Source: Candidatus Altimarinota bacterium
GTDB lineage: Bacteria > Patescibacteriota > Gracilibacteria > BD1-5 > UBA6164
Reading direction: 5' to 3'
Assembly: GCA_013350285.1 (NCBI GenBank)
Contig: JAAXWG010000001.1
Coordinates: 1-64,000 of the forward strand
Length of the DNA stretch: 64,000 bases
Positions 42,365 to 63,924 of this stretch are shown in pieces (position 1 is the stretch's first letter; every line of letters starts with the position of its first letter). A program made the translations under genes and the position numbers. The notes beneath the pieces are model-generated. The model made no database searches, was not told the DNA's origin, and was given only the letters and a program-made list of their open reading frames with translations.

Positions 42365-43846
42365 ATGAAAAAATACCTTTTAATATTCCTTGTTATTCTC
42401 TCGTTTTTTGTGATATGAGGAATAATAATAAACGAATTTATTTTAAATGATGATATTATTATCACAAAAAAAGAGACTATAAATTCTCCTTCTAAAAACC
42501 AAGAAATAAGTAAAAGTAACTCTTGAGGAGAAGAAAAAACGGAAGATAAGATGAAAGAGTTAAGAGATAAGTTTGCTATAAGATGACTTATAATAGAATG
42601 AGAAAGTTATCTTAATAATGACCAATATGCTCTTGCTTTAAAAAAATTTTTACAAGCATTTAAAAGTACAAATGAAGATCCAATCATTGCAGAACAAATC
42701 GGAGATATTTATATGAAGATGAACAAATATATGCTTGCTTATAAATATTATAAAAAAATTCCATGAGAACTTTCTCCTGAAATCAAAGATAAAATAATTT
42801 TTTCATATCTTTATAATGCTGAACTTAAAGATAAGTGAAAAAGAGAAGATGCAAAAAAAGAAATTCTTAGTCTTGAACTTGATGAAGAAAAAAAATTTTA
42901 TTATATCTCAAGTCTTGAATGCTTAGATGATTTTCATAGCTGTAAGACAAATCTTTCAAATTATATTTTTGCTGAAAATAAAGAATTAAAAATAGATGAA
43001 CTAAAAAATATAAAAATGGCATTTGATTCTTATAGAACCTATAAAGCAACAGCTCAAAATACTCAACTAGAAGATATTTATTACAAAGATGCTCTTATTG
43101 TTTGAGCTTTTTTCAAGAATAAAATGTTTCCTATAAGTGTCCTTCTTTGAAAAGATATACTAAAAGAAAAAGAAGATTATAAACCAATATTAAAACTTAT
43201 TGCTCAAAGTTATTTTGAATTAGGAAATATGCAAGGATCAAAAATCTACCTTGGACTTTATAACAAAATAGAAAAAGACAATAAAGAAATTATCTATATG
43301 CTGGGAGTAATAAATCTCAAATTACATGAATATATTCTCAGTAATATATTTCTCAATAAGGCTCTTGAACTTGGATATGAGCCAAAAACAAATGTAAAAA
43401 GAAGGCTTATTTATAATTATTTTGAACTCGCACAAATAGAAAATATGCTCAAAGAATTTGAAAGTCTTGTGAGAAATGAAGCTGTTGAAAAAGAAGATAT
43501 ATATCTTTCTATTTATTATCATATTGTATACAACAAAAAAGATACTGCTTTAGAATTAGCAAAAATAGGACTTCAAAAATTCCCAGATGATGCAAATATT
43601 TATGCTTATATGGGATGGATATACAAGGATAAAAACGAACTAGAAAAAGCTTCTGAAAATCTCAAAAAATGACTTGAAATTGATCCTCAAAATGCTCTTT
43701 CAAATCTCAATATGGGGTATCTAGAAATAGCAAAAGGAGAAGAAAAAAAAGCTATTGTTTATTTTAAAAAAACAATTAAAAAAGACAAAGAAGGTGAGTT
43801 TGGAAAACAAGCTCTGAGAGAAATAAATAGGATAAGTCAAAAATAA
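42365..43846 (+). CDS. TPR-repeat protein with membrane anchor
   Basis: A 493-residue protein. An N-terminal anchor (YLLIFLVILSFFVIGGIII) is followed by a charged stretch and tetratricopeptide-like helix pairs: YALALKKFLQAFKSTNEDP, YMLAYKYYKKI, then at the C-terminus ANIYAYMGWIYKDKNELEKA and NALSNLNMGYLEIAKGEEKK. It is probably an outside-facing or periplasm-like scaffold. It precedes a hypothetical gene by 23 bp. Confidence 0.8.
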
Positions 43847-43869
43847 TTTATAAAACAACAAACAATATT

Positions 43870-44442
43870 ATGCTTTCAGAAAAAGAAAAACTTAAAGAGT
43901 ATTTAAAAAAAAATCCAAGCATTCTTCTTGATGAGCTTGCAAAAGAAATAGGAACAAATTATTGACTCAAAAAAGAAACAATTACTCTGCTTTTTAAGGA
44001 AGAAACAAGAAGTTCTCTTGAAAACTTTAAAAAAACTTACAAAAAAATAAAAGAAGATTCAGAAGGAAAAGAAGTAGATGTTCCTCTCTTGAGTGAAAAA
44101 GAAGTAGAAGAACTTTATTACACTCTCAAATGAGCGAAACAAATTCTCAGTGAAATGAGTCATAAAGATATAGAATTTTTCAAAGAAAATCTTCCTGCTT
44201 CTGTAACTCAAGCAAAAAAATATGTAAGTGCAAAAATATTACCAGAAAAGATGATTTCCAGAGCAATAAATCCTCAAAATATCTCTGACCAAATCACCTG
44301 AATTTGTATAGGGACAGCAAATTCTTGTGAAGAAATTATCCTCACTCTCTACAAAATCGGAAAGTGAGTTCTTCAAAGTCCATATCACATTTATCTCGTT
44401 TTTTCAGGACAAGGAGAATATCCAAATTGGAAAAATGTGTAG
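43870..44442 (+). CDS. Hypothetical helical protein
   Basis: A 190-residue protein without signal or membrane segment. The N-terminus (EKEKLKEYLKKNPSILLDEL) looks like a helix-turn-helix wing. Later LSEKEVEELYYTLKGAKQIL and a C-terminal SCEEIILTLYKIGKGVLQSP are seen. It may form a transcript with the TPR gene. The family is not recognised. Confidence 0.6.
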
Positions 44443-44467
44443 AGAAAATTAAAATCATATAATTTTA

Positions 44468-44496
44468 TTGACTTTTTATTTATTTTATATTTTAAT
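44468..44496 (+). promoter_or_regulatory. Promoter of the Mrr-HRDC nuclease gene
   Basis: TTGACT, 17 bp, TTTAAT, 34 bp before the start codon; similar to the promoter of the degenerate paralogue at 3043. Confidence 0.6.
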
Positions 44497-44530
44497 ATTA
44501 TTATAAGTATTTAATATTAAAATATAGAGT

Positions 44531-45445
44531 ATGAAAATCAATACTTTAGATTTAACAAAAACTATAAGCGACTTTTTGTTTTTATGAGTAGAAAATCCTG
44601 AAGAAAAGGCAAGAAAAATATTTGAAATAAAACATAGTCTTACAGCTCATTGATTTGAAAAATATATGCAATATTATTTTCAAAAATATAGAAATTACAA
44701 AATCTGAAATCCAAAAACAAATGAATTTGACCACTGAATAGATTTAAAGTGAGTAAAATACGAAAATTGAAAAAATAAATTCCTAATTGTTCAATGTAAA
44801 AAATTTTCCATAAAAGATATTACAGAAGACCTTATAGCTAATTTTTATTGAAAGATAATTGATAAAGTAATTAATTTGAAAGATAATATTGAAATATTTT
44901 ATATTACAACTTCAAAATTTACAGATAAAGCAAAAATTTTTTGAAAAGAAAAATGAATAAAGACAATAGATTTTTATGATATTTATAAATTACAAGAAAT
45001 CTATCCTTTAGAAAAATTTAAAGATGAAATTCTTAAAAATGAATGACAAAAAGAAATTAGAAAATGTTTTTGTGATAACCAATTAATACTAAAACTATAT
45101 GACAATCATTTTAATATTGAAAGTCCAAGTGATATTGAACTATACCAATTTCTAAAACAAATTAGAAGAGATTATTCCTATAAAAATCAGTTACGATTAT
45201 GAGATATTGCAAGAAACGAAACTCTAGAACTTTTAGCAAGAAAAAGACCTTATAATTTTCAATCATTAAAAGATACTATAAGGACTCTTCCAAGTAGAGA
45301 AAGAAATAAAATACTTAAACATTGAGATATATTTACTGAAAGACTAAGGTATCTAAAAATTAAAGAAGAAAACAATGAGAAGATTAATGAAGAAATCAAA
45401 ATAAGAAAAAAGAAAAAAAGTTTTCTTGAAATATTATTTTGATAA
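44531..45445 (+). CDS. Mrr-like restriction endonuclease with HRDC-like domain
   Basis: A 304-residue protein. Residues about 35-190 are an Mrr-type PD-(D/E)xK domain: FDHGIDLKG (Asp71) and LIVQCKKF (Gln88-x-Lys90) are the catalytic motifs, followed by IFYITTSKFTDKAKIFG. The C-terminal part (IARNETLELLARKRPYNFQS) resembles an HRDC/helical DNA-binding domain. Mrr enzymes cut methylated or foreign DNA. It stands alone with its own promoter. Compare the damaged copy at 3104. Confidence 0.82.
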
Positions 45446-45450
45446 TTAAT

Positions 45451-46647
45451 CTAAAAAATCACCTTTTTCAAAACCTTTACTATATTCTTTTTATTGTGTT
45501 TATAGAGAACATCTTTGTCTATAAAATCATCTTCATAAATAGTTACTCCTCTCTTTTTGAGTAAAATTCTTTCTTCATCTGTGAGATAAATAAACTCTCC
45601 TCATTTTACACTGATATTTTGTTTGAGATTTTCTAATTCTTCTCTATCTATTTCAGGAACCTTGTTGTTTACGATAAGCATATTTATACTTTTTCCAAGA
45701 TATTTTTCTACTTCTCATACAAAATCCATGACTTTATATCCGGTTGTTTCTCCTCATTTATTGGTATTATTTACAGCATAAATGAGAGAAGCCTTGGAAT
45801 CTCTGATAAGCTCTTTTATTCATCAAATAATGAGATTTGAAATCGTAGAAGTATACAAATCTCAAGGAGTGATAAAAATATAATCAGCTTCTGAAATACA
45901 TTTCTTTATATCTTCTGTATGATAAGCTTCACAAGAATCAGGAGAAAGCTCAAGGTAAGCGATTTTTTCATTGTATTCTACTACATTACTGATAGCATCT
46001 TGTGTACAAATAATTTCACCACTTTCCAAAACTGCTTGAATTGTCGCTTTATCAAATGTAACCGGAATAACTTTTCCCCAAGTATCAAAAAACTCGTGCA
46101 TAAAATCAAGCATTTTTTGATAATCTCAAAAATTATAAAACAAAGAAGCAAGAACAATATTTCCAAATTTGTGCCCAAGAAGACTTTCATCAAGTGGAAG
46201 AATAAAATCTTTTGTATCTCAAAAAAGCTCTTTCATAGTTTTTAGCAATTTTTCTTTTTTCTTAAAAAGTTTTTCTTCATCTTTGTCCCCAAATAATCCT
46301 TTATTTTCTTGATACAATTCTTCTACTATGATTCTTGAAAGTTCTCCAAGATTAAATTTTGATATATCATTTTCATTATAAAAACTTTTTTCAAAGAGGA
46401 GAGAAATAATTTCTTTATTTTTCAGAGAAGAAAGTGAATACATACACCTTCTAATATCTCAAGTTGGGGGAAGATAAAGAGAAAAACTTTGATCAAAAAG
46501 TCGCATTAATTTTCCTGTTGTTCTCCCATCATCACTCATAGAAACAACTGCCTGAAGAGAAACTTTTTCTTCTCTCATCCCTTCATACAAAGCTGAAAGA
46601 ATATGTGAATGTCCATTTCCTCCTCCAATAGTAACAATTTTTTTCAT
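45451..46647 (-). CDS. Gluconeogenesis factor YvcK/GlmR (CofD-like)
   Basis: A 398-residue protein. KKIVTIGGGNGHSHILSAL at the N-terminus and SMSDDGRTTGKLMRL are the CofD/YvcK nucleotide-sugar site; ADYIFITPGDLYTSTISNLI and IYAVNNTNKGGETTGY complete it. It binds UDP-GlcNAc and, in Firmicutes, activates GlmS; glmS is also in this window. The Gly of GDLYTS is TGA. Many CPR genomes keep this protein, which argues for a role in cell-wall precursor control. Confidence 0.88.
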
Positions 46648-46719
46648 AAATTGTAAATAAAGTTTTAATTTAATTTTTTATTTTTAAGATTATTCTAAAC
46701 TTGGTTTTTTCGTTGGAGT

Positions 46720-47586
46720 TTACCCTAAATTTTGTATAAATTTTTTTATTTCTTCTCTTAATTCTGGTCTTTCCCAAGCATAATATAAAGTTGCTTTGAG
46801 AAAACCAAGCTTACTTCCTGTATCAAATCGCAATCATTTTGTATCCAGAGCAAAAATATCTCTTTCTTGCAACATAAGAGCAAAAGCATCAGCAAGTCGT
46901 ATTTCTCAAGTTTTTTTTGATTCCCTTACTTGTTCCAAGTAATCAAATATATCTGGAGTTAAAACATATTTTCCTATAACTCCAAGACGAGAATCTGTTG
47001 TTCAATACACTGGTTTCTCAAGAAAACTACTTACTTTTACAATTTCATCTTCATAATTTTTTGATTCTACAATTCCATAAGCACTTACTTCTTCTTGTTT
47101 CACTTTTTCTACTGATATTATAGGAGCATTTTTTTGTTCATAAGCTTCTATAAGTTTAGAAGAAGCTGATTTTTCTCCTACAATGATATCATCACCAAAA
47201 AGTACAAGAAATGGCTCATCTCCTATAAAATTTTTTGCTCTCAGAAGTGCATCCCCATCTCATCGTGGATAAGGTTGTCTTACATAATAAATATTTGCAA
47301 GATTTGATACCCCTCTTACTTTTTCAAGACTTTCTAGCTTATTATCTCTTTTTAAAGCCTCTTCAAGTTCATAATTTGAATCAAAATGATCTTCTATGGC
47401 TCTCTTATTTCTTCAGGTAATGATAATAATATCTTCACATCCTGCAGAAACAGCTTCTTCTACAAGATACTGCATAACAGGCTTATCTATAATAGGAAAC
47501 ATTTCTTTAGGTAAAGCTTTTGTCGCAGGAAGAAATCTTGTTCAAAGTCATGCTGCTGGGATAATACATTTTCTTACTTTTTTCAT
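46720..47586 (-). CDS. galU: UTP--glucose-1-phosphate uridylyltransferase
   Basis: A 288-residue nucleotidyltransferase. [20 protein letters not shown] is the nucleotide-binding start (with TGA for two Gly), [20 protein letters not shown] the sugar-phosphate region, and [20 protein letters not shown] follows. It makes UDP-glucose for glycan synthesis. yvcK lies downstream in the same direction with 72 bp between. Confidence 0.93.
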
Positions 47587-47729
47587 ATTTTCTTTATTTA
47601 GATTTTTAATTTTTTATAATTTTCTTAAAACAAAAGATATGGCAAATCAATATTTTTACAAATTTTGTGAGAAAGATTTTTCAATTTCGTTTCACTTTAT
47701 TTGAAATGACAAAATTTTTTTTTTGAAAC

Positions 47730-47774
47730 GATTGCTATCAATCTTTATTTTCTTGGATTGATAACAATCAATCC
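47730..47774. repeat. Pair of short hairpins
   Basis: GATTG-CTAT-CAATC (47730-47743) and GGATTGAT-AACA-ATCAATCC (47755-47774), separated by 11 nt. The two share the GATTG core. There is no clear T run after them, so a REP-like doublet is as likely as a terminator of the upstream Nif3-like gene. Confidence 0.5.
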
Positions 47775-47784
47775 CTACTCTTTT

Positions 47785-48555
47785 TTAATACTTCTCATCA
47801 AGAAAGACAATTTCAATTCCAAATTTTTCTCTCAAATGCTCTGCAAGAAGTTTTGGTCAAATTGTCTCTGTCTCCCGATGTCATCATATACATACACTCA
47901 ATCATAAATCTTTTGCAAGACAAATTTCAGAGTGTTTCGCCTCTCCCGTCAAAAAAGCATCATAGTCTTTTTCACTGGCTTCTTTTATATCACTTCCACC
48001 TGCTCCACTCATAAAAGCAATGGAATGAATACAATCTTTTTTTCAAAAATTATACAATTTTTTCTCAAGTCCTACTTGTTCTGCAAAAAGAGTGATAAGA
48101 GTATCTATATAAATATCTTCTTTAAATCGTATTCCATACCCAATTGTTTGTCCATGATATTCTCAAAAAGTTTCTATTTCATATTCTTGCAACTTAAAAA
48201 TACGAATAAATGCTTGTAATAATCAAATATTATTTCCGAGTTCATTATGAGCATCAAGAGGAAGATGACATGCAAAAAGTGCGATATTATTTTGGATAAG
48301 GGTTTGTATTCTCTTAAATACTACTCAAGTGATAACTTCCTCTTGTCCCCAAAAAAGTCAATGATGACAAAGCACTAAATCTACTTTTTCATCACGAGCT
48401 TTTTCAAATATATAAGCTGTTGCATCTACACTATATCCAATTTTTGAAATTTCTTCTTTTTCATTATCTACTTGTAGACCATTTTGTGAATTATCATCAA
48501 AGTCTTTTATTTTTAAATATTCTTCAAGGTATTGTATAAATTCTATTTTTTTCAT
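47785..48555 (-). CDS. Nif3-like dinuclear metal-centre protein
   Basis: A 256-residue protein. NSQNGLQVDN, VDLVLCHHGLFWGQ and ALFACHLPLDAHNELGNNIG hold the metal-binding His and Asp residues; GGHRETETIGPKLLAEHL gives the C-terminal metal ligands. The Gly of HHGLFWG is TGA. The family (YbgI/YqfO) forms rings and has been proposed as a GTP cyclohydrolase I type 2, but its true role is open. Confidence 0.9.
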
Positions 48556-55945: not shown

Positions 55946-57508
55946 CTAAAATTCATCATTTTCTAAATGATAATTATAATATAACAAATTCAATATTTCA
56001 ATAAAACTTTTATTCTTATTTTTATGCTCTTTTATTTCATCTTCAGCTACAAAATCAATTACTATTCCTGATCAAACTTGATTATAAAGTATATTTCATT
56101 TTTTAATAATAGTTCTAATTATTACAGCAAAATCAGCATTTCCATTAAATCAAAAATATCCTATTGCTCAACTATAAATACCTCTATTGGTTATTTCATA
56201 TTTACTTATAAGTTTCATTGCCTTGATTTTTGGAGCTCATGTAACATTTCAGTGTGGAAAAATTCAAGAAAATATATCAAAATAATCTTTTCATTTAGCT
56301 ATTTTTCAAACTACATTAGATACTATATGTATTAGATGATTATATTTTTTAATATACATTTTTTTTGTAACTTTAATACTTCATGGTTCACAATTTTTTG
56401 ATAAATCATTTCTAATTAAATCTATTAACATTGTATGTTCAGCTTTTTCTTTTGGATTATTTTGTAATTCATGCTTTAGCCTTTTAAAGTCTTGCAGAGT
56501 TTTTCAAACTCACCTTGTTCAAGCAAGTGGCCTTGTTAGAACTTTACTTCAATTTATTCTTACAAAAGTCTCAGGAACTGATCATATAAGTTCAAAATCC
56601 TTAAAATTAAAATAAAACATATAACTTGCAGGATTTATATGCCTTAATCACTTATAAACATCTATTCAAGATATATTTTTTGATTTTGAAATATTTCATA
56701 AATCAAAAGAATAAGTTTCACTTATAACTGTTTGAAATACATCACCATCTGTTAAATCCCTTTTTAGTTCATTTAAAATATTTCTATATTGTGTATCAGA
56801 TAAATTTGATTTTATATTCATCTCTACATTTTTTTTATTTCAAGATAATATTAAAGGGGTATTTTTAGAATGTTTTGATATTATTTTTAAAATATTTCTG
56901 ATATTAATTTCTACTTTTTTTCTTTTACTTTCAAATTCTATTTGATTTATATTGTCATTCAAAAATATATTTGATATTATTTGAATTTTTCATTGTTTAA
57001 AATTATCAAAAATTACAAAATCTTTATATAATCAGAAAAATCAATATGGATAATTTTGATCTATATTTTTATGTTTAGATATTTTATAAAGAGACTCAAT
57101 ATTGTCATATCACATATATCAAATAAGCCCACTTGTCAAGGGGGGTAAATTATCGTTTTTAATAGATTTAAATTTTTTAGTTTCTTCTTTTAAAATATCA
57201 AATGGATTTTTATAAATTATTTTTTCTTCTTTATCAAACTTATAATCTTTAACTAAACAAGTTTTTTCATCTTGAAATAAAAAAGTTTTTCTTGGATTAA
57301 ATCATATAATAGTATATCTAGATGTATTAGATGCACTATCTAAACTTTCAAATAAAAATGGATAATTCACATTTTCTGAAATAAGATTTTCTAAACAATT
57401 TATAGGAGTTCATATTCAAGAAGAAATTTCAGTATAAACAGGCAAAAAATTTCACTTTTTTTTATATTTTTTTATATTTTGTATTTCTGGTAATAATTCT
57501 ATATTCAT
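55946..57508 (-). CDS. trpE: Anthranilate synthase component I
   Basis: A 520-residue chorismate-binding enzyme. N-terminal FESLDSASNTSRYTIIGFNP is the Trp-feedback region; the catalytic part has FQTVISETYSFDL, TRPLAGTRG, EHTMLIDLIRNDLSK, HGNVTGAPKIKAMKLI and NRGIYSGAIGYFG. Ala in PLAGT supports anthranilate rather than aminodeoxychorismate (which needs Lys here). It is a second, unfused copy of the function found in trpEG at 3983, and is more like classical TrpE. trpG is 6 bp upstream. It is the last gene of the operon; the repeat begins 17 bp after the stop. Confidence 0.9.
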
Positions 57509-57514
57509 ACCATT

Positions 57515-58111
57515 TTAGTTAAATAAAAAATTTTTTAATATCTTTAATCAATCAGGAGTTCCTATACTTTCTGGATGAAATTGAACTCCCCAAATATCAT
57601 ATTTTTTATGTTTTATTCACATAATTATATTATTTGTTTTTGCGATTATTTCAAGATTATTTGGTAAAGATATATTTTCTCAAATTTGAGAATGGTATCT
57701 CATTATTTTTATATTATCTTTTAATCACTTAAATATAATACTTTCATTATTTATAATTGCAAAATCTTCTTTTCAGTGCATTATTTCATTAGCAACGATT
57801 ACATTTCATCAAAAATATTTATAAATCAATTGATGTCATAAACATATTCAAAGTATTTTTATTTTATCTTTAAAATAATCAAGTAACTCCTCAGATATTC
57901 AAATATCTTCTTTTCTATATACAGTTCATTGTCATGGTCAAAAAATAATATGAGTAGGATTTGTCTGAATTATTTCTTTAAGAGTTTTTTCATTGTTTTT
58001 TATTACTAAAATATCATTAATAGAAATTTTATGTTTTTTAAAAATAATACATATAAAATTATATATATTATAAGTGAAAGAATCATAATTATCAATTATT
58101 ATTACTTTCAT
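57515..58111 (-). CDS. trpG: Anthranilate synthase component II (glutamine amidotransferase)
   Basis: A 198-residue class I amidotransferase. IIDNYDSFTYNIYNFI begins it; FGPGQGTVYRKEDIG is the oxyanion region; GICLGHQLIYKYFGG holds the catalytic Cys, and VQFHPESIGTPDG the His and Glu. Nearly all these Gly are TGA. It supplies ammonia to TrpE, whose gene follows after 6 bp. The start overlaps the end of the exporter gene by 23 bp. Confidence 0.92.
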
Positions 58112-58955
58112 ATTTTTTATTTAAAAAAGTATAAATAAACAAAGTAACTAAAATTAAAAACATTCAAATATAATTATAAGTATTTAAAATTAAATCAAAT
58201 AAAAATATTGAAAATATGATAGTAATTATGGGGGTTATATAATCAAAAAAGATTATTTTATTTCATAATTTTTTTATTGATTTAGCCCAAAGTATTGGAG
58301 CTATAAAAGTTGGAATTAATCATAATATGAATAATATAAAATATTGAAATAGGGTTATATCTTTAATTACTTCTAAATTAATATTTCATAATCCAATCAA
58401 TAATAAAAAAACTAAAAGAGATGAAAACAGATTTCATAGTGAAAATACTTCATTTTCATTTTTTATTTTTGATGAAAAAATCATCAAAAAAGCCCAAGCT
58501 ATTGAACTACAGAGCGGAATTATGATATATAAAAAATTTATAGTTATTCAGTTATCTGTATAACTAAGTAAACTTACTCATAAAATAAGTAATATTCATA
58601 TAAAATAATTGTATTTTTTAAATTCTTTTTTATACAAAATTGAATAAATAATATTTTGAAAAAAAGGAGAATTTTTGATTATTAAAGTTGCTAATATGAT
58701 ATTTCAAAAAATTATTCAGTAAAAATTTCCTAAATAATGAATTATTGTTAAAAATGAAATTATAAGAATATTTAATAAAAATATCTTACTTTTTAGTAAT
58801 GAAAAAATATTTTTGTTAAATATTCAAGGAAGTCATGCAAAAAACAATATAAATACAAAAAGTATTAGTATGTCAATGTCTCAAAGAAAATATTTCAATA
58901 ATATTGGAGCAAGTCACCAAGATAGTATTGAGAAAATTGGGTATAGGTATAACAT
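58089..58955 (-). CDS. EamA-like permease of the trp operon
   Basis: A 288-residue protein with nine or ten membrane segments in two halves (APILLKYFLGDIDILILFVF; SIAWAFLMIFSSKIKNENEV; FFDYITPIITIIFSIFLFDL). The second half matches the EamA pattern: an early GLIPTFIAPILWAKSIK and a late PIITIIFS. Gly is coded almost only by TGA. It overlaps trpG and lies 1 bp from the phosphatase-like gene, so it belongs to the operon and probably exports the product or an aromatic amino acid. Confidence 0.75.
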
Positions 58956-58956
58956 C

Positions 58957-59445
58957 TTATAATAATGATTTAACAATTAGTTTTATTTCATCTCTTATAA
59001 TTCTTGATTTTTCAATTCATTCTCAAGCTGGATCATCAACAACTTTTATTTGAATTTTATCACTATAGTTTTTCAATAAAAACTTAGTTGGATTTTCTCA
59101 TTTTACCCTAAATTCTGAATCTTGTTCTAAATTTAGCCACAATAATAATATTATCCTATCAGCTTCATCGCAAATTTCTTTTGTTAATAACTTTATCTCT
59201 TGAAAAGATATATCTATTCCATCTTCTCTCATAATATCTTGTATCATTGATGAAGGTTTTCATCAGTATTCTCTTATTCTTTTGTTTATTATCATGGATT
59301 CATTATCTATTTCTGGTAATAGATTAATTCTATCCTCTATTAAAGCAACACTAGTTCAATCTCGTGAATTAGTAAAATGGTTATAATATCACTCTGCCAT
59401 TTGACTCCTTCATACATTAGCTGAACAGATAAAAAGTGTTTTCAT
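58957..59445 (-). CDS. ArsC/low-molecular-weight phosphatase-like protein
   Basis: A 162-residue protein. LFICSANVGRSQMAEGYYNH is the Cys-x5-Arg-Ser loop (Cys7 nucleophile), GIDISFQEIKLL and EADRIILLLWL follow, and VVDDPAGEGIEKSRIIRDEI holds the Asp-Pro general acid. The order fits thioredoxin-type arsenate reductases as well as LMW tyrosine phosphatases. The extra Cys pair used by ArsC for thiol relay is not evident, so a phosphatase on a small molecule or protein is possible. Its place inside a biosynthetic operon, 1 bp from each neighbour, is unusual. Confidence 0.75.
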
Positions 59446-59446
59446 A

Positions 59447-60334
59447 TTATTTTAATTTTCTAAATAAAAATCAAGCTCAGTCTCATTTTTTTGGATTTTT
59501 TGCAATTATTCATAAATATATATCAGTTCATAAATTATGTTTCAATTCATTATATTCATCAATAGCAAATATTTCATTTTCTCATATTTTAGTAAAATTT
59601 ATAAAATCACTAATAAATTTAAAATTATCAGTTTTAACTTTTATTTCTTCTATAAATTCAAAAATTTTTATATTGTCATGTTTTTTATCTATTCTTCAAT
59701 TTATAAATCAATAATATACTAAAAAATTTAAGATATTTATAACTCAATTTTTAAATCAAATATCATCAACATGGTTTCAGCATTCTATTCAATAAGCTTC
59801 TTTTCATTTTCTTATAAATTCTCAAATAATAGATCATGTATTTCATATTTCATCAATTAAAATAGTTTCTACATCAAAGAATTTTTCTGCTTTATCTTTA
59901 TATTTTGTATCACTAATTCATATTAAGTCATTTCATTTTGATACACTATGGATATCTATTACAAAATCAATTTCATCAAATATTTGTTTTAATTCATAAA
60001 ATCTTTTATGCTCATAACTTCAATTTTTAAATTTTTTATTTGATACACGATTCATATTATCATCTATAAACCTAAACTTATTTTTATCTTCAGATTTTGA
60101 ATATTTTATATATGCCTCAATATTATTTGCAATTAAATAAATTTTTCATCATTTTAATTTTTCATTTATTTTAAATTCATTAACTAGATATTCAAATATC
60201 TTTAATCATACTGGTTCATTTCAATGAGTAATTGCAATAAGTCATATATTTTCCCCAGGTTTTCAAGAATCAATTATAGTAATTCAAGAAATATTTTTGT
60301 GAGTGTTTTTAACAAAATTATACATATTTTTCAT
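59447..60334 (-). CDS. Aspartoacylase/succinylglutamate desuccinylase-like zinc hydrolase
   Basis: A 295-residue hydrolase. AITHGNEPVGLKIFEYL gives zinc-binding His and Glu, DDNMNRVSN the substrate-binding Asn-Arg, FVIDIHSVSKG the third zinc ligand, and AYGIECGNH the catalytic Glu. These motifs in this order are those of AstE/aspartoacylase, which split N-acyl amino acids. The start overlaps the GNAT gene by 17 bp. A GNAT and a deacylase in one operon suggest that an N-acylated intermediate is made and removed. Confidence 0.8.
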
Positions 60335-61034
60335 TTTTGTAGTAAGCTACTAATAAAGAGTCTCAATTTTCATAATTAAATCAAGGATAAAAATTTTCAT
60401 CAACAAATCTTACATTTTGTTTATTTCACATAGGTCATCAATATACTCATTTAAATAATCCTTTTTCTAAACATTTTTTTCATCAATCTAAATTAGTAAA
60501 GAAATAATTTAACTCTTCTTCAATCATTCAATTATTTAGTAAAAAATCATAAGCATCTTCTCAAAGTAAAACTGTAAATCATTGTTTTTTTAAAGAATTT
60601 ATTATATTTTGATTTTGAGTTCTTAGAAAATATTTTCAATCATTTCATATTTTTTCTCAAAGTATTTTATATAATCATTTTCATTGTTGTTCTTTACTTA
60701 TAGAAGTTCAAAATCTATATACAAATCAATTAATAATTATAATAGATGAAAATCAAATTATTATTCAATTATTTTTTATTATGTATATGTGAGTACTTTT
60801 AAATATATGAGATTTTATATCATTATCTCAAACTTTTACTCCAAATCCTGACCTAATAACATTAATAACTTCTTGCATTTCATATTCAGGAAAATCACTA
60901 GGATTATAAACTTCTATAGTAATATTATTTTGTTCTACTAAATTTTTAACAGCATCAGATATTCAAGGTGATTGTTGAGAATATTCTTTTTTTATTCAAA
61001 ATCATAATGAATTTCACAAAGTATTTAAAGACAT
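60318..61034 (-). CDS. GNAT acetyltransferase-like protein
   Basis: A 238-residue protein. IIIGFSSIIIINGFVYRF is strand 4, then GTSISKEQQGKGLYKILGEK supplies the acyl-CoA loop (Gln-x-x-Gly-x-Gly type), and NIINSLKKQGFTVLLGED matches the end of the fold. The first ~65 residues and the C-terminal 60 (GPMGNKQNVRFVDENFYP) are extra and may bind the acceptor. The operon setting suggests an amino group of an aromatic compound as acceptor; this is inference. Confidence 0.72.
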
Positions 61035-61084
61035 AAATTTAAAAATTAACATTTAAAATATTTTATTAATCTTTTCATGATTAA

Positions 61085-62242
61085 CTACTTACTTAAAACA
61101 AATACTAAATAATGTCATAAATAAGGTTTATGCTTACAATGAGCTTTTTCATAATCAATAGCTTGATTTACTCTATCTTCATTGTCAAAAAATATGGGTG
61201 GCATCATAGAGGTAATAAATGAATGACTATAAGTTCAATCAACTTTTAATTCAGTTCAATTTAATTCAGCTAAGATATCATCATAACCTCTTGCCTTTGC
61301 ATAAACTTTAAATACTTTATGAGTTCAATCTCTCTTAATTATTGGTATTTCTATAAAATCATTTTCTGTATTTATAACAGTTTCCATAGAAGATTGCCAT
61401 GGTTGCCACCATTTATCCATTAAAGATTCACTATTATAAAATGATAAAAATGCTTTTCATCATTTTTTTAATATCCTATTTACTTCATTAATAATACCAT
61501 CATTTATTTCACTAGCAGATCAGAAATTTGCAACAACTAAATCAATTGAATTGTTTTTTTCTGGAATTCATTCAACTAAATCAGATTCTATGTATCAAAT
61601 ATTATATCATCAATTTAATTTTTTAGCTTCTCTAATCATATCTGGAGAAACATCATATCAATTTACTTTAAAAAATCATTCTGAAGATAAAAATCTTGTA
61701 ATATCTCAATTTGCACATCATAAATCTATAGCTACTCATTTATTTTCAGGTAGGTTTTCTTTTAATAAACCTAATTCCATACTTCTAGCTAATTTAGTAG
61801 CATTAAATCAATCTCAATAATCACTATAATTTTCAGCAACTTCACTTGTTAAAGATAATAAATTTCTTCTAAGTTCCTCTTGTGTAATTTCTTCTTTAAC
61901 AAAAATATTCTTTCTATCTAATATTTGTCTTTGTTTTTCTTTTCAAGCAGCAGTTATTAACCAAATAAGCATTTGCATCATTCTTTCATCTTCTCAAGAA
62001 TTTTTAGCAATTTCAGAAAACTTCATTATTAAATCATATTCTCTATCAAGCTGTAAAATTGCTTCTGATTTTCTTTTTGAAGATGCAATTTGTCACATAA
62101 GTATTAATCTATCTAAAAATATAGATGCTATTTTTGAAGTCATTTCAGTAAGAAGTTCTCTTGTGAGTTCTCTTGCTTTTTTTAAATCTTCTTGATTTTC
62201 ACTATTTAGTAAAATTCAAACTTGAAACAATCTTTCATCCAT
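61085..62242 (-). CDS. Chorismate mutase (AroQ-type) fused to a SAM-dependent methyltransferase
   Basis: A 385-residue fusion. Residues 20-110 are all-helical, with Arg28, Arg45, Lys56, Arg67-Glu68 and Gln104. The spacings (17, 11, 11 and, from Glu68, 36) match Arg11, Arg28, Lys39, Arg51, Glu52 and Gln88 of E. coli chorismate mutase to within one residue. From ~165 a class I methyltransferase follows: GVAIDLGCANGDITRFL (SAM loop), GYDVSPDMIREAKKL, SIDLVVANFG and NRILKKGGKAFLSFYN. So one chain may make prephenate and transfer a methyl or, as CmoA does with prephenate, form carboxy-SAM. It is the third gene of the trpS-trpR-...-trpG-trpE operon. I know no such fusion by name. Confidence 0.78.
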
Positions 62243-62330
62243 GATTTTAAAATTAAGAATAATTTATTTATTTCCAATATTATATATAATTATAAAATCA
62301 TGAATAACAAAATAAAGTTTCTACAACAAT

Positions 62331-62356
62331 GTTATAGTAATATACTACACTGTAAC
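62331..62356 (-). promoter_or_regulatory. Dyad upstream of the chorismate mutase-methyltransferase gene
   Basis: GTTATAG...CTGTAAC arms (one mismatch) surrounding TAGTA-ATA-TACTA, 88 bp before the start of the fusion gene and directly behind trpR2. It is a candidate site for TrpR2 or an internal promoter; the core does not match the TGTATTAAT site of the first trp locus. Confidence 0.35.
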
Positions 62357-62373
62357 AGTATAAAACTCTATAA

Positions 62374-62637
62374 TTATAATAATTTATGTATAATTTTTTT
62401 TTCGTATGTATAAAGTCTACTTCATCTACTTACTGTTGTTAAAGATATTCTTAGTTTTTCAGAAATCTCTCTTTGTGTAAGTCATTTTTTTAAATACCTT
62501 AATATTTGAATTCTTGCTCAAACATCTATTATTTCATCAGGTGTAAATAAATCTTTTATCAAATCGCATAAATCCTCTTTTGTTTCTATCTTTAATATAA
62601 TTTCAGACACTAACTCTAAAGCGTTTTTTAATTCCAT
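62374..62637 (-). CDS. Second TrpR-family repressor
   Basis: An 87-residue protein, the same length as the TrpR at 5992. FTPDEIIDVGARIQILRYL, KGLTQREISEKLRIS and LTTVSRGSRLYTYEKK align with it directly (TPAEIHDIAERIRILEML, GISQRKIALELGIS, ITTVTRGSRIFKYDGK). It lies between trpS and the chorismate mutase gene. It probably senses tryptophan, or the pathway product, and controls this operon. Confidence 0.85.
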
Positions 62638-62696
62638 ATTTTTTATTTTAAAAAATATATTTAATATTAATATCAAAAGGTTATATATAAATTTTT

Positions 62697-63809
62697 TTAA
62701 CTTTTTCAATATCAAATAATTCACATTTTTTCCTTTAATTCTTGTAATAATTCTTGTCAAATTTTTCTTACATTCTCACTACCTTCTTCAATAGATGAAA
62801 TCACTAAATCCATATTATTTTTATAATATTCTCTTTTTTCTCTGATAGGAGATATCAATTCATCTAAAATTTTTACTAAAAGTTTTTTTAATTCTCAATC
62901 TCAAACACTATTTTCTCAACCTTCAATATATCTTTTTTTGAGTTCTTCAAGATGCACTTTATCACTATAAAATATATCTAAATATTTAAATACTACATGA
63001 TTTTCTATATTTCAAGGAGCTGAGACTGAAGTTTTTCATGAATCAGTATACATACTATTCACTCATTTTTTGATTTCATTTAATGTCGCTGTCAAATAAA
63101 TAGTATTTCATAGGCTTTTACTCATTTTATCATTTCCATCAGTTCCTACCAGTCTTGGAGTTTCTGAAATCAGAGCCATTGGTAAAGGAAAGCTTGTCCC
63201 GTACATAGTATTTACTTTTTTGATTATCTTTCTTGCTAATTCTATATGCGGAATTTGGTCTTCTCATACTGGAACTATTTCTCATTTTGGTAGCATAATA
63301 TCTGCAACTTGACTAACGGGATAATTGATAAATCAAAGTGAAACTGAACTATTCTCTCATTCTCATCTATTTTCAATTTTTTTCATTTCATCTTTAAGAG
63401 TTGGATTATTTGTGGCAACACTATATGGAGTAAACATAGTGAGTAAATTGAAAAGTTCAGCAAATTCTGGAACATAACTTTGAACGACGAAGTTTGATTT
63501 TTTTGGATCTAGTCATACAGATAGCCAGTCAATAACCATATTTACTACAGCACTCCTTAATCTTTCTGTATCTCATAAATGATCTCACAAAACTTGATAA
63601 TCTGCTATTAAAAAATTATTTTTAATATTTTGGGTATCTTGCATTAATAGCCAATTTTCTAGTGCTCATTTAAAGTGTCATAGATGGAGTCTCCCACTTG
63701 GTCTCATACCAGTTAAACAATTTACAACCCTATCTCAAACTTTATATTTAAAATCTTCTACTCATCTTATTACATGTGGAGTTTTATTGGATATATTTAT
63801 TTTTTTCAT
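62697..63809 (-). CDS. trpS: Tryptophanyl-tRNA synthetase
   Basis: A 370-residue class I synthetase. TGMRPSGRLHLGHFKGALEN carries the HIGH-type site (HLGH, residues 42-45), GDHLGDTERLRSAVVNMVID matches the Rossmann core, and GNDKMSKSLGNTIYL the KMSKS loop. It charges tRNA-Trp. It is the first gene of the operon, behind a strong promoter. It may be the cell's normal enzyme or a second, regulated or resistant copy protecting the cell from an indole-like product; the window cannot tell. Confidence 0.93.
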
Positions 63810-63846
63810 AGAAATATTTATTAAAAAGTAAATAATAATAATAATA

Positions 63847-63874
63847 AATATAAAATTAATTACATTTTTGTCAA
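63847..63874 (-). promoter_or_regulatory. Promoter of the trpS operon
   Basis: Minus strand TTGACA (plus 63869-63874), 16 bp, TATATT. It begins just after the right copy of the direct repeat. Confidence 0.65.
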
Positions 63875-63900
63875 ATATTTTTAAAAAAATCAATACTCAA

Positions 63901-63924
63901 CAAAAAAACCTCAAAATTTGAGGC
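63901..63924 (-). terminator. Terminator within the direct repeat (right copy)
   Basis: Minus strand CCTCAAATTTTGAGG followed by seven T; it ends the gene cut by the window edge, ahead of the trpS promoter. Confidence 0.8.

Follow-up and report, generated by a model that had tools for sequence, protein, structure and literature searches.

To our knowledge, prephenate has few known fates, which comprise phenylalanine, tyrosine, carboxy-SAM, tRNA hydroxylation and some antibiotics. PheA and TyrA fuse an AroQ domain to a prephenate dehydratase (PDT) or a prephenate dehydrogenase (PDH), respectively, and the Pap pathway uses an ADC synthase (PapA), an ADC mutase (PapB) and a methyltransferase (PapM). 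AroQ-class chorismate mutases (CMs; PF01817), represented by the N-terminal domain of Escherichia coli PheA, have a three-helix pattern and an active site built from Arg11′, Arg28, Lys39, Arg51, Glu52 and Gln88 (PMC5526877). The DAHP synthase of Bacillus subtilis, AroA(Q), carries a fused AroQ domain with a nearly identical set (Arg10′, Arg27, Lys38, Asp47, Arg50, Glu51 and Gln86) and a Ser84-to-Gly replacement, and this domain has been argued to be regulatory, as in DAHP synthases of the Bacillus/Listeria type (PMC5526877). CmoA, a class I methyltransferase by fold, uses prephenate together with SAM (PMC6599085).

The 64,000-nucleotide stretch analysed here (the window) encodes, at positions 61085–62242 of the reverse strand, a 385-residue protein in which an AroQ-like domain precedes a class I SAM methyltransferase. 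This architecture is real and rare, and it is a new combination of known parts. The original prediction of such a fusion was borne out at exactly these coordinates with TGA read as glycine (Methyltransf_25, E = 1.6e-13; CM_2, sub-threshold at E = 1.8e-4; hhalign, P = 1e-6). The window needs genetic code table 25, because the frame contains 22 in-frame TGA codons and stays open only when these encode an amino acid; under table 11 it is closed and no such open reading frame exists. In-frame TGA codons also occur in the fusion homologues of two other genomes (G022 and G059), and the assignment of TGA to glycine is known in Absconditabacteria/Gracilibacteria (PMC8080830). The source genome (G000; 1.28 Mb, 98% complete) belongs to a tiny, reduced and probably host-dependent member of the Patescibacteria.

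Sequence comparison assigns residues ~160–290, the Rossmann core of the C-terminal region (residues ~119–385; 61088–61886, reverse strand), to a clear class I SAM methyltransferase. Residues 169–290 match several methyltransferase families, including Methyltransf_25 with 51.6 bits against a cut-off of 27. The full SAM loop expected in this half is present, with DLGCANG as motif I and D197 as the acidic post-I residue. The methyltransferase half resembles generic methyltransferases in the Protein Data Bank (PDB), its model matches methyltransferases at Z ~15–17, and no particular substrate class stands out among the fold-search matches. Foldseek and VIA-align searches with the fusion model, which cover the methyltransferase half alone, listed only methyltransferases. 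Two family-specific motifs, WWQPWQ and MMPPIFF, lie in the C-terminal region. PheA and TyrA resemble the fusion in having an N-terminal AroQ domain and a fused next step, but here the C-terminal partner is a class I SAM methyltransferase instead.

The N-terminal domain (residues 1–118; 61889–62242, reverse strand) is more divergent. Its top Pfam match is CM_2 (PF01817; 22.1 bits, E = 1.8e-4), which aligns residues 31–104 to model positions 5–79/80. The curated cut-off of 27 bits is not reached by the full-length protein (19.0 bits), by the N-terminal part alone (22.1 bits) or by the G059 homologue (20.2–23.5 bits; E = 5.5e-5 for the 23.5-bit match in a genome scan), and a CM model of NCBIfam matches the fusion weakly, with 17.9 bits against a cut-off of 77. 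A local CM HMM, trained on 27 CMs (the E. coli enzyme and 26 sequences of the compared genomes, including two of the source genome), gave the three fusion members bit scores of 26.2, 20.4 and 14.3. Two of the three AroQ-like domains were shuffled, and none of the ~9,900 shuffles scored exceeded 13.8 bits, so the G059 member is only marginal by this measure. Profile–profile alignment by hhalign paired the AroQ half with the CM profile (P = 1e-6, probability 91%); the aligned region spans 83 columns and is interrupted by a gap of one residue. A search of the PDB with the three-member AroQ-half profile returned no CM, its transaminase matches (E ~0.008) being biologically senseless, and the relationship is therefore remote. 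When 380 genomes of the phylum were searched with the AroQ half, the one extra match (G085, E = 7e-4) was an ordinary stand-alone CM, a reciprocal hint of AroQ homology. At the level of sequence, we accept this remote homology and assign residues ~26–108, the CM-aligned core, to a divergent AroQ-class (CM_2) domain.

All six residues predicted to lie at AroQ active-site spacing to within one residue are present. R28, R45, K56, R67, E68 and Q104 align to R11, R28, K39, R51, E52 and Q88 of the E. coli enzyme, with a one-residue deletion in the H1–H2 loop as the only such change in the alignment. They are invariant in all three fusion copies, which has a probability of ~0.005 given 50 invariant columns among 118, or 0.009 within the aligned core. 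Two lesser active-site positions are altered, namely Asp48 to Gln64 and Ser84 to Gly100 (E. coli numbering to fusion numbering); these, together with the loop deletion, an extra N-terminal helix and the fused methyltransferase, distinguish the fusion from the E. coli enzyme. The polar set and the Ser84-to-Gly replacement recur in B. subtilis AroA(Q), which differs in its DAHP synthase partner and in keeping Asp47. Residue conservation is consistent with a catalytically plausible mutase. A single-sequence AlphaFold2 (AF2) model, used for secondary structure only given its pLDDT of 35.5, predicts with low confidence a long H1 (residues 17–53) followed by H2 and H3. An AF2 model from a shallow alignment has a pLDDT of ~90 in the methyltransferase core and ~50–85 in the AroQ half, with the expected helices. 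These helices are no independent test of the assignment, because the alignment, which comprised the window protein and 13 remote relatives, included E. coli CM as one of its rows.

The fusion gene is the first of seven tightly packed genes on the reverse strand, in a run that ends in trpG and trpE and whose members either overlap or stand no more than 32 bp apart. It is followed by genes for a weakly GNAT-like possible acyltransferase (60318–61052; E = 0.042, below the cut-off), an AstE/AspA-type metallo-deacylase (59447–60334; E = 7.2e-11), a low-molecular-weight phosphatase or arsenate reductase-like protein (58957–59445), an EamA-type transporter (58089–58976; E = 9.3e-14), a TrpG/PabA-type glutamine amidotransferase (57515–58111; TIGR00566, 157 bits, over the cut-off) and a TrpE-type chorismate-binding enzyme (55946–57508). 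The last of these carries RPLAGT, which we take to be the anthranilate/TrpE-type motif, PIKGT being that of PabB; a PabB/ADC reading of this gene was dropped on account of the RPLAGT motif.

Directly upstream on the same strand lies a gene for a TrpR-like regulator of the TrpR/YerC superfamily (62374–62638, ATG at 62638; Trp_repressor, E = 1.1e-17), whose product falls below the NCBIfam cut-offs for both TrpR and YerC. It is preceded by a tryptophanyl-tRNA synthetase-like gene (trpS; 62697–63914, reverse strand; E = 1e-46), the true start of which is probably internal to these coordinates. The 131-bp gap before the fusion gene (62243–62373) contains two adjacent palindromes, ACTGTAACAGT (62349–62359) and TAGTAATATACTA (within 62335–62348), each weak against chance, which together (62335–62359) are a possible candidate operator. 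Promoter and terminator scans gave nothing above chance. The genes aroC and aroA lie ~5 kb upstream of the fusion gene (L063:3952–6398), and two further CM genes are found on another contig of the source genome. One 205-residue protein of that genome has a C-terminal CM_2 domain (L029:8412–9029; 44.5 bits), and its gene lies 4.4 kb from a second CM gene. By analogy only, the parts list of this locus (a TrpE/G-type enzyme, an AroQ-type mutase and a methyltransferase) resembles that of the Pap pathway; it differs in its anthranilate-type RPLAGT TrpE, in having no dehydrogenase and in how the parts are fused.

Among 147 genomes (the source genome and relatives), we found only two other full-length fusion copies, in G059 and G022, and searching the 77 genomes of the order that were compared with a profile yielded no more. 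The three are 46–56% identical across the whole protein. The G059 copy is intact and 46% identical to the window protein. The G022 copy (50–56% identity) has one frameshift inside the AroQ domain, reflecting either a pseudogene or an assembly error, and entered the alignment as two pieces joined with X at the frame break. No relative turned up among viral contigs and phages, and plasmids gave one partial methyltransferase match. Two loci in the genome contig search match the methyltransferase half only. Among the more distant single-domain methyltransferase matches (L006–L024), those with a readable frame have neither the AroQ half nor the family motifs. We found the CM_2–methyltransferase architecture as a named family in neither Pfam, NCBIfam nor the open-access literature searched. 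A TPR protein, a 190-residue protein and a NIF3-like gene at 42365–48555 of the window have counterparts at L027:14370–17440 (33–57% identity); this set lies on the contig of the fusion gene, within ~20 kb, in both the source genome and G022, which suggests a loosely shared gene order.

The pathway content of the three host genomes bears on what the fusion might do. We detected no PDT, PDH or TrpA in any of them, no match to CmoB (PF08003) and no CmoA. In the source genome, nothing, the fusion protein included, matched the CmoA model (TIGR00740, cut-off 193 bits) at E ≤ 0.001, and in G022 one methyltransferase matched it below threshold. As PDT, PDH, CmoA and CmoB are all missing from the three genomes, neither the phenylalanine and tyrosine routes nor a use for carboxy-SAM is evident; anthranilate, if made, is not obviously destined for tryptophan, since TrpA was not found. 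Chorismate synthase (AroC) is absent from G022 and G059, and none of the genes read around their fusion genes belongs to the aromatic pathway. This lack of AroC, together with the unrelated neighbours, is the strongest evidence against a simple chorismate mutase role in all members.

AroQ-like proteins are common in the order at large, in which 46 of the 77 genomes have CM_2 and nine have AroC. They include stand-alone proteins of ~90 residues, mostly in genomes without chorismate synthase (L032, L033, L036–L038, L042, L045, L046, L053, L057, L059 and L060). A motif shared by many of them, PLQPxRW...WNxIHKxAL..E, corresponds to Asp48-to-Gln, Glu52-to-Trp and Gln88-to-Glu changes relative to the E. 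coli enzyme. In four other members of the class (G083, G090, G104 and G099), the loci L041, L044, L047 and L055, respectively, join an AroQ domain to a TrpE-type chorismate-binding enzyme in one open frame of 544–588 residues.

We tentatively favour a reading in which an AroQ-like chorismate- or prephenate-binding domain, possibly a mutase, feeds or controls a methyltransferase that acts on small molecules, within a pathway derived from chorismate. The N-terminal domain would probably form a domain-swapped dimer, with Arg28 reaching into the partner's site, and the dimer would bind chorismate or a close analogue, which it most likely still converts to prephenate or an amino-analogue. The methyltransferase domain would then act on the product bound by the neighbouring domain or be gated by it. 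Such an enzyme may constitute the entry step of the pathway in the source genome, given that its gene comes first in the TrpG/TrpE run with a deacylase, a possible acyltransferase and an EamA transporter, stands behind a TrpR-like gene and has aroC and aroA nearby; the run presumably forms a regulated operon. That no PDT or PDH would otherwise consume prephenate also speaks for this reading, though two other CM genes exist. Against it stand the two AroC-deficient hosts with their unrelated gene neighbours, the G022 frameshift, the substitutions at Asp48 and Ser84 and the sub-threshold CM_2 scores, as well as the precedent of DAHP synthase fusions, in which an AroQ domain with an almost identical set of residues may serve chiefly for regulation (PMC5526877). 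The stricter version, in which a bifunctional enzyme converts chorismate to prephenate (or an amino analogue) that is methylated or otherwise used with SAM by the same chain, is unlikely; a prephenate-modifying enzyme, as had also been proposed from the sequence, is possible.

Two alternatives to a domain that serves a chorismate-derived pathway merit weight, both of them doubtful. The AroQ-like domain may be an allosteric sensor rather than a working mutase, with chorismate, prephenate or a similar acid switching the methyltransferase. The B. subtilis precedent favours such a role, as do the two separate CM genes already present in the source genome. The invariance of all six catalytic positions, including the Glu52 and Gln88 equivalents, counts against a sensor, but the DAHP synthase domain keeps them too; moreover, G022 and G059 have no known target pathway. 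Equally, the fold may have been recruited for another acidic ligand from outside the cell's own shikimate pathway, prey-scavenged or unrelated, which the domain mainly positions for the methyltransferase. This would suit the two hosts without AroC, an order rich in CM_2 but poor in AroC with many altered active sites, and the dependence of Absconditabacteria such as Vampirococcus on host contents (PMC8080830). However, the fused domain retains the mutase residues better than the orphan AroQ-like proteins do, and in the source genome it adjoins chorismate genes.

The original prediction further proposed a self-feeding synthase, in which the mutase makes prephenate and the SAM domain turns it, with SAM, into carboxy-SAM as CmoA does. 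Both halves are indeed in one chain and CmoA does use these two substrates (PMC6599085), but the fusion shares only the class I fold with CmoA, without a family-level match; none of the three genomes has a CmoB partner to use carboxy-SAM, and two of the three hosts have no chorismate synthase, so that we regard this proposal as very improbable. Finally, an accidental likeness, in which a helical dimerization domain bears coincidental residues, would fit the sub-threshold Pfam scores, the PDB profile search, the low AF2 confidence and a G059 score barely above the shuffles, yet it is rendered highly implausible by CM_2 matches in two members, the profile–profile result, an in-register alignment with one indel and the six invariant positions.

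A mutase-like domain joined to a SAM enzyme in such Patescibacteria would add to the fates of prephenate or show the AroQ fold reused as a sensor. Because AroQ-like proteins are widespread in relatives without chorismate synthase, the question is a general one for the order. If the bifunctional reading is true, the fusion would give prephenate a previously undescribed exit; besides the fusion, the bacterium encodes chorismate synthase and two more mutases, but no known PDT or PDH.
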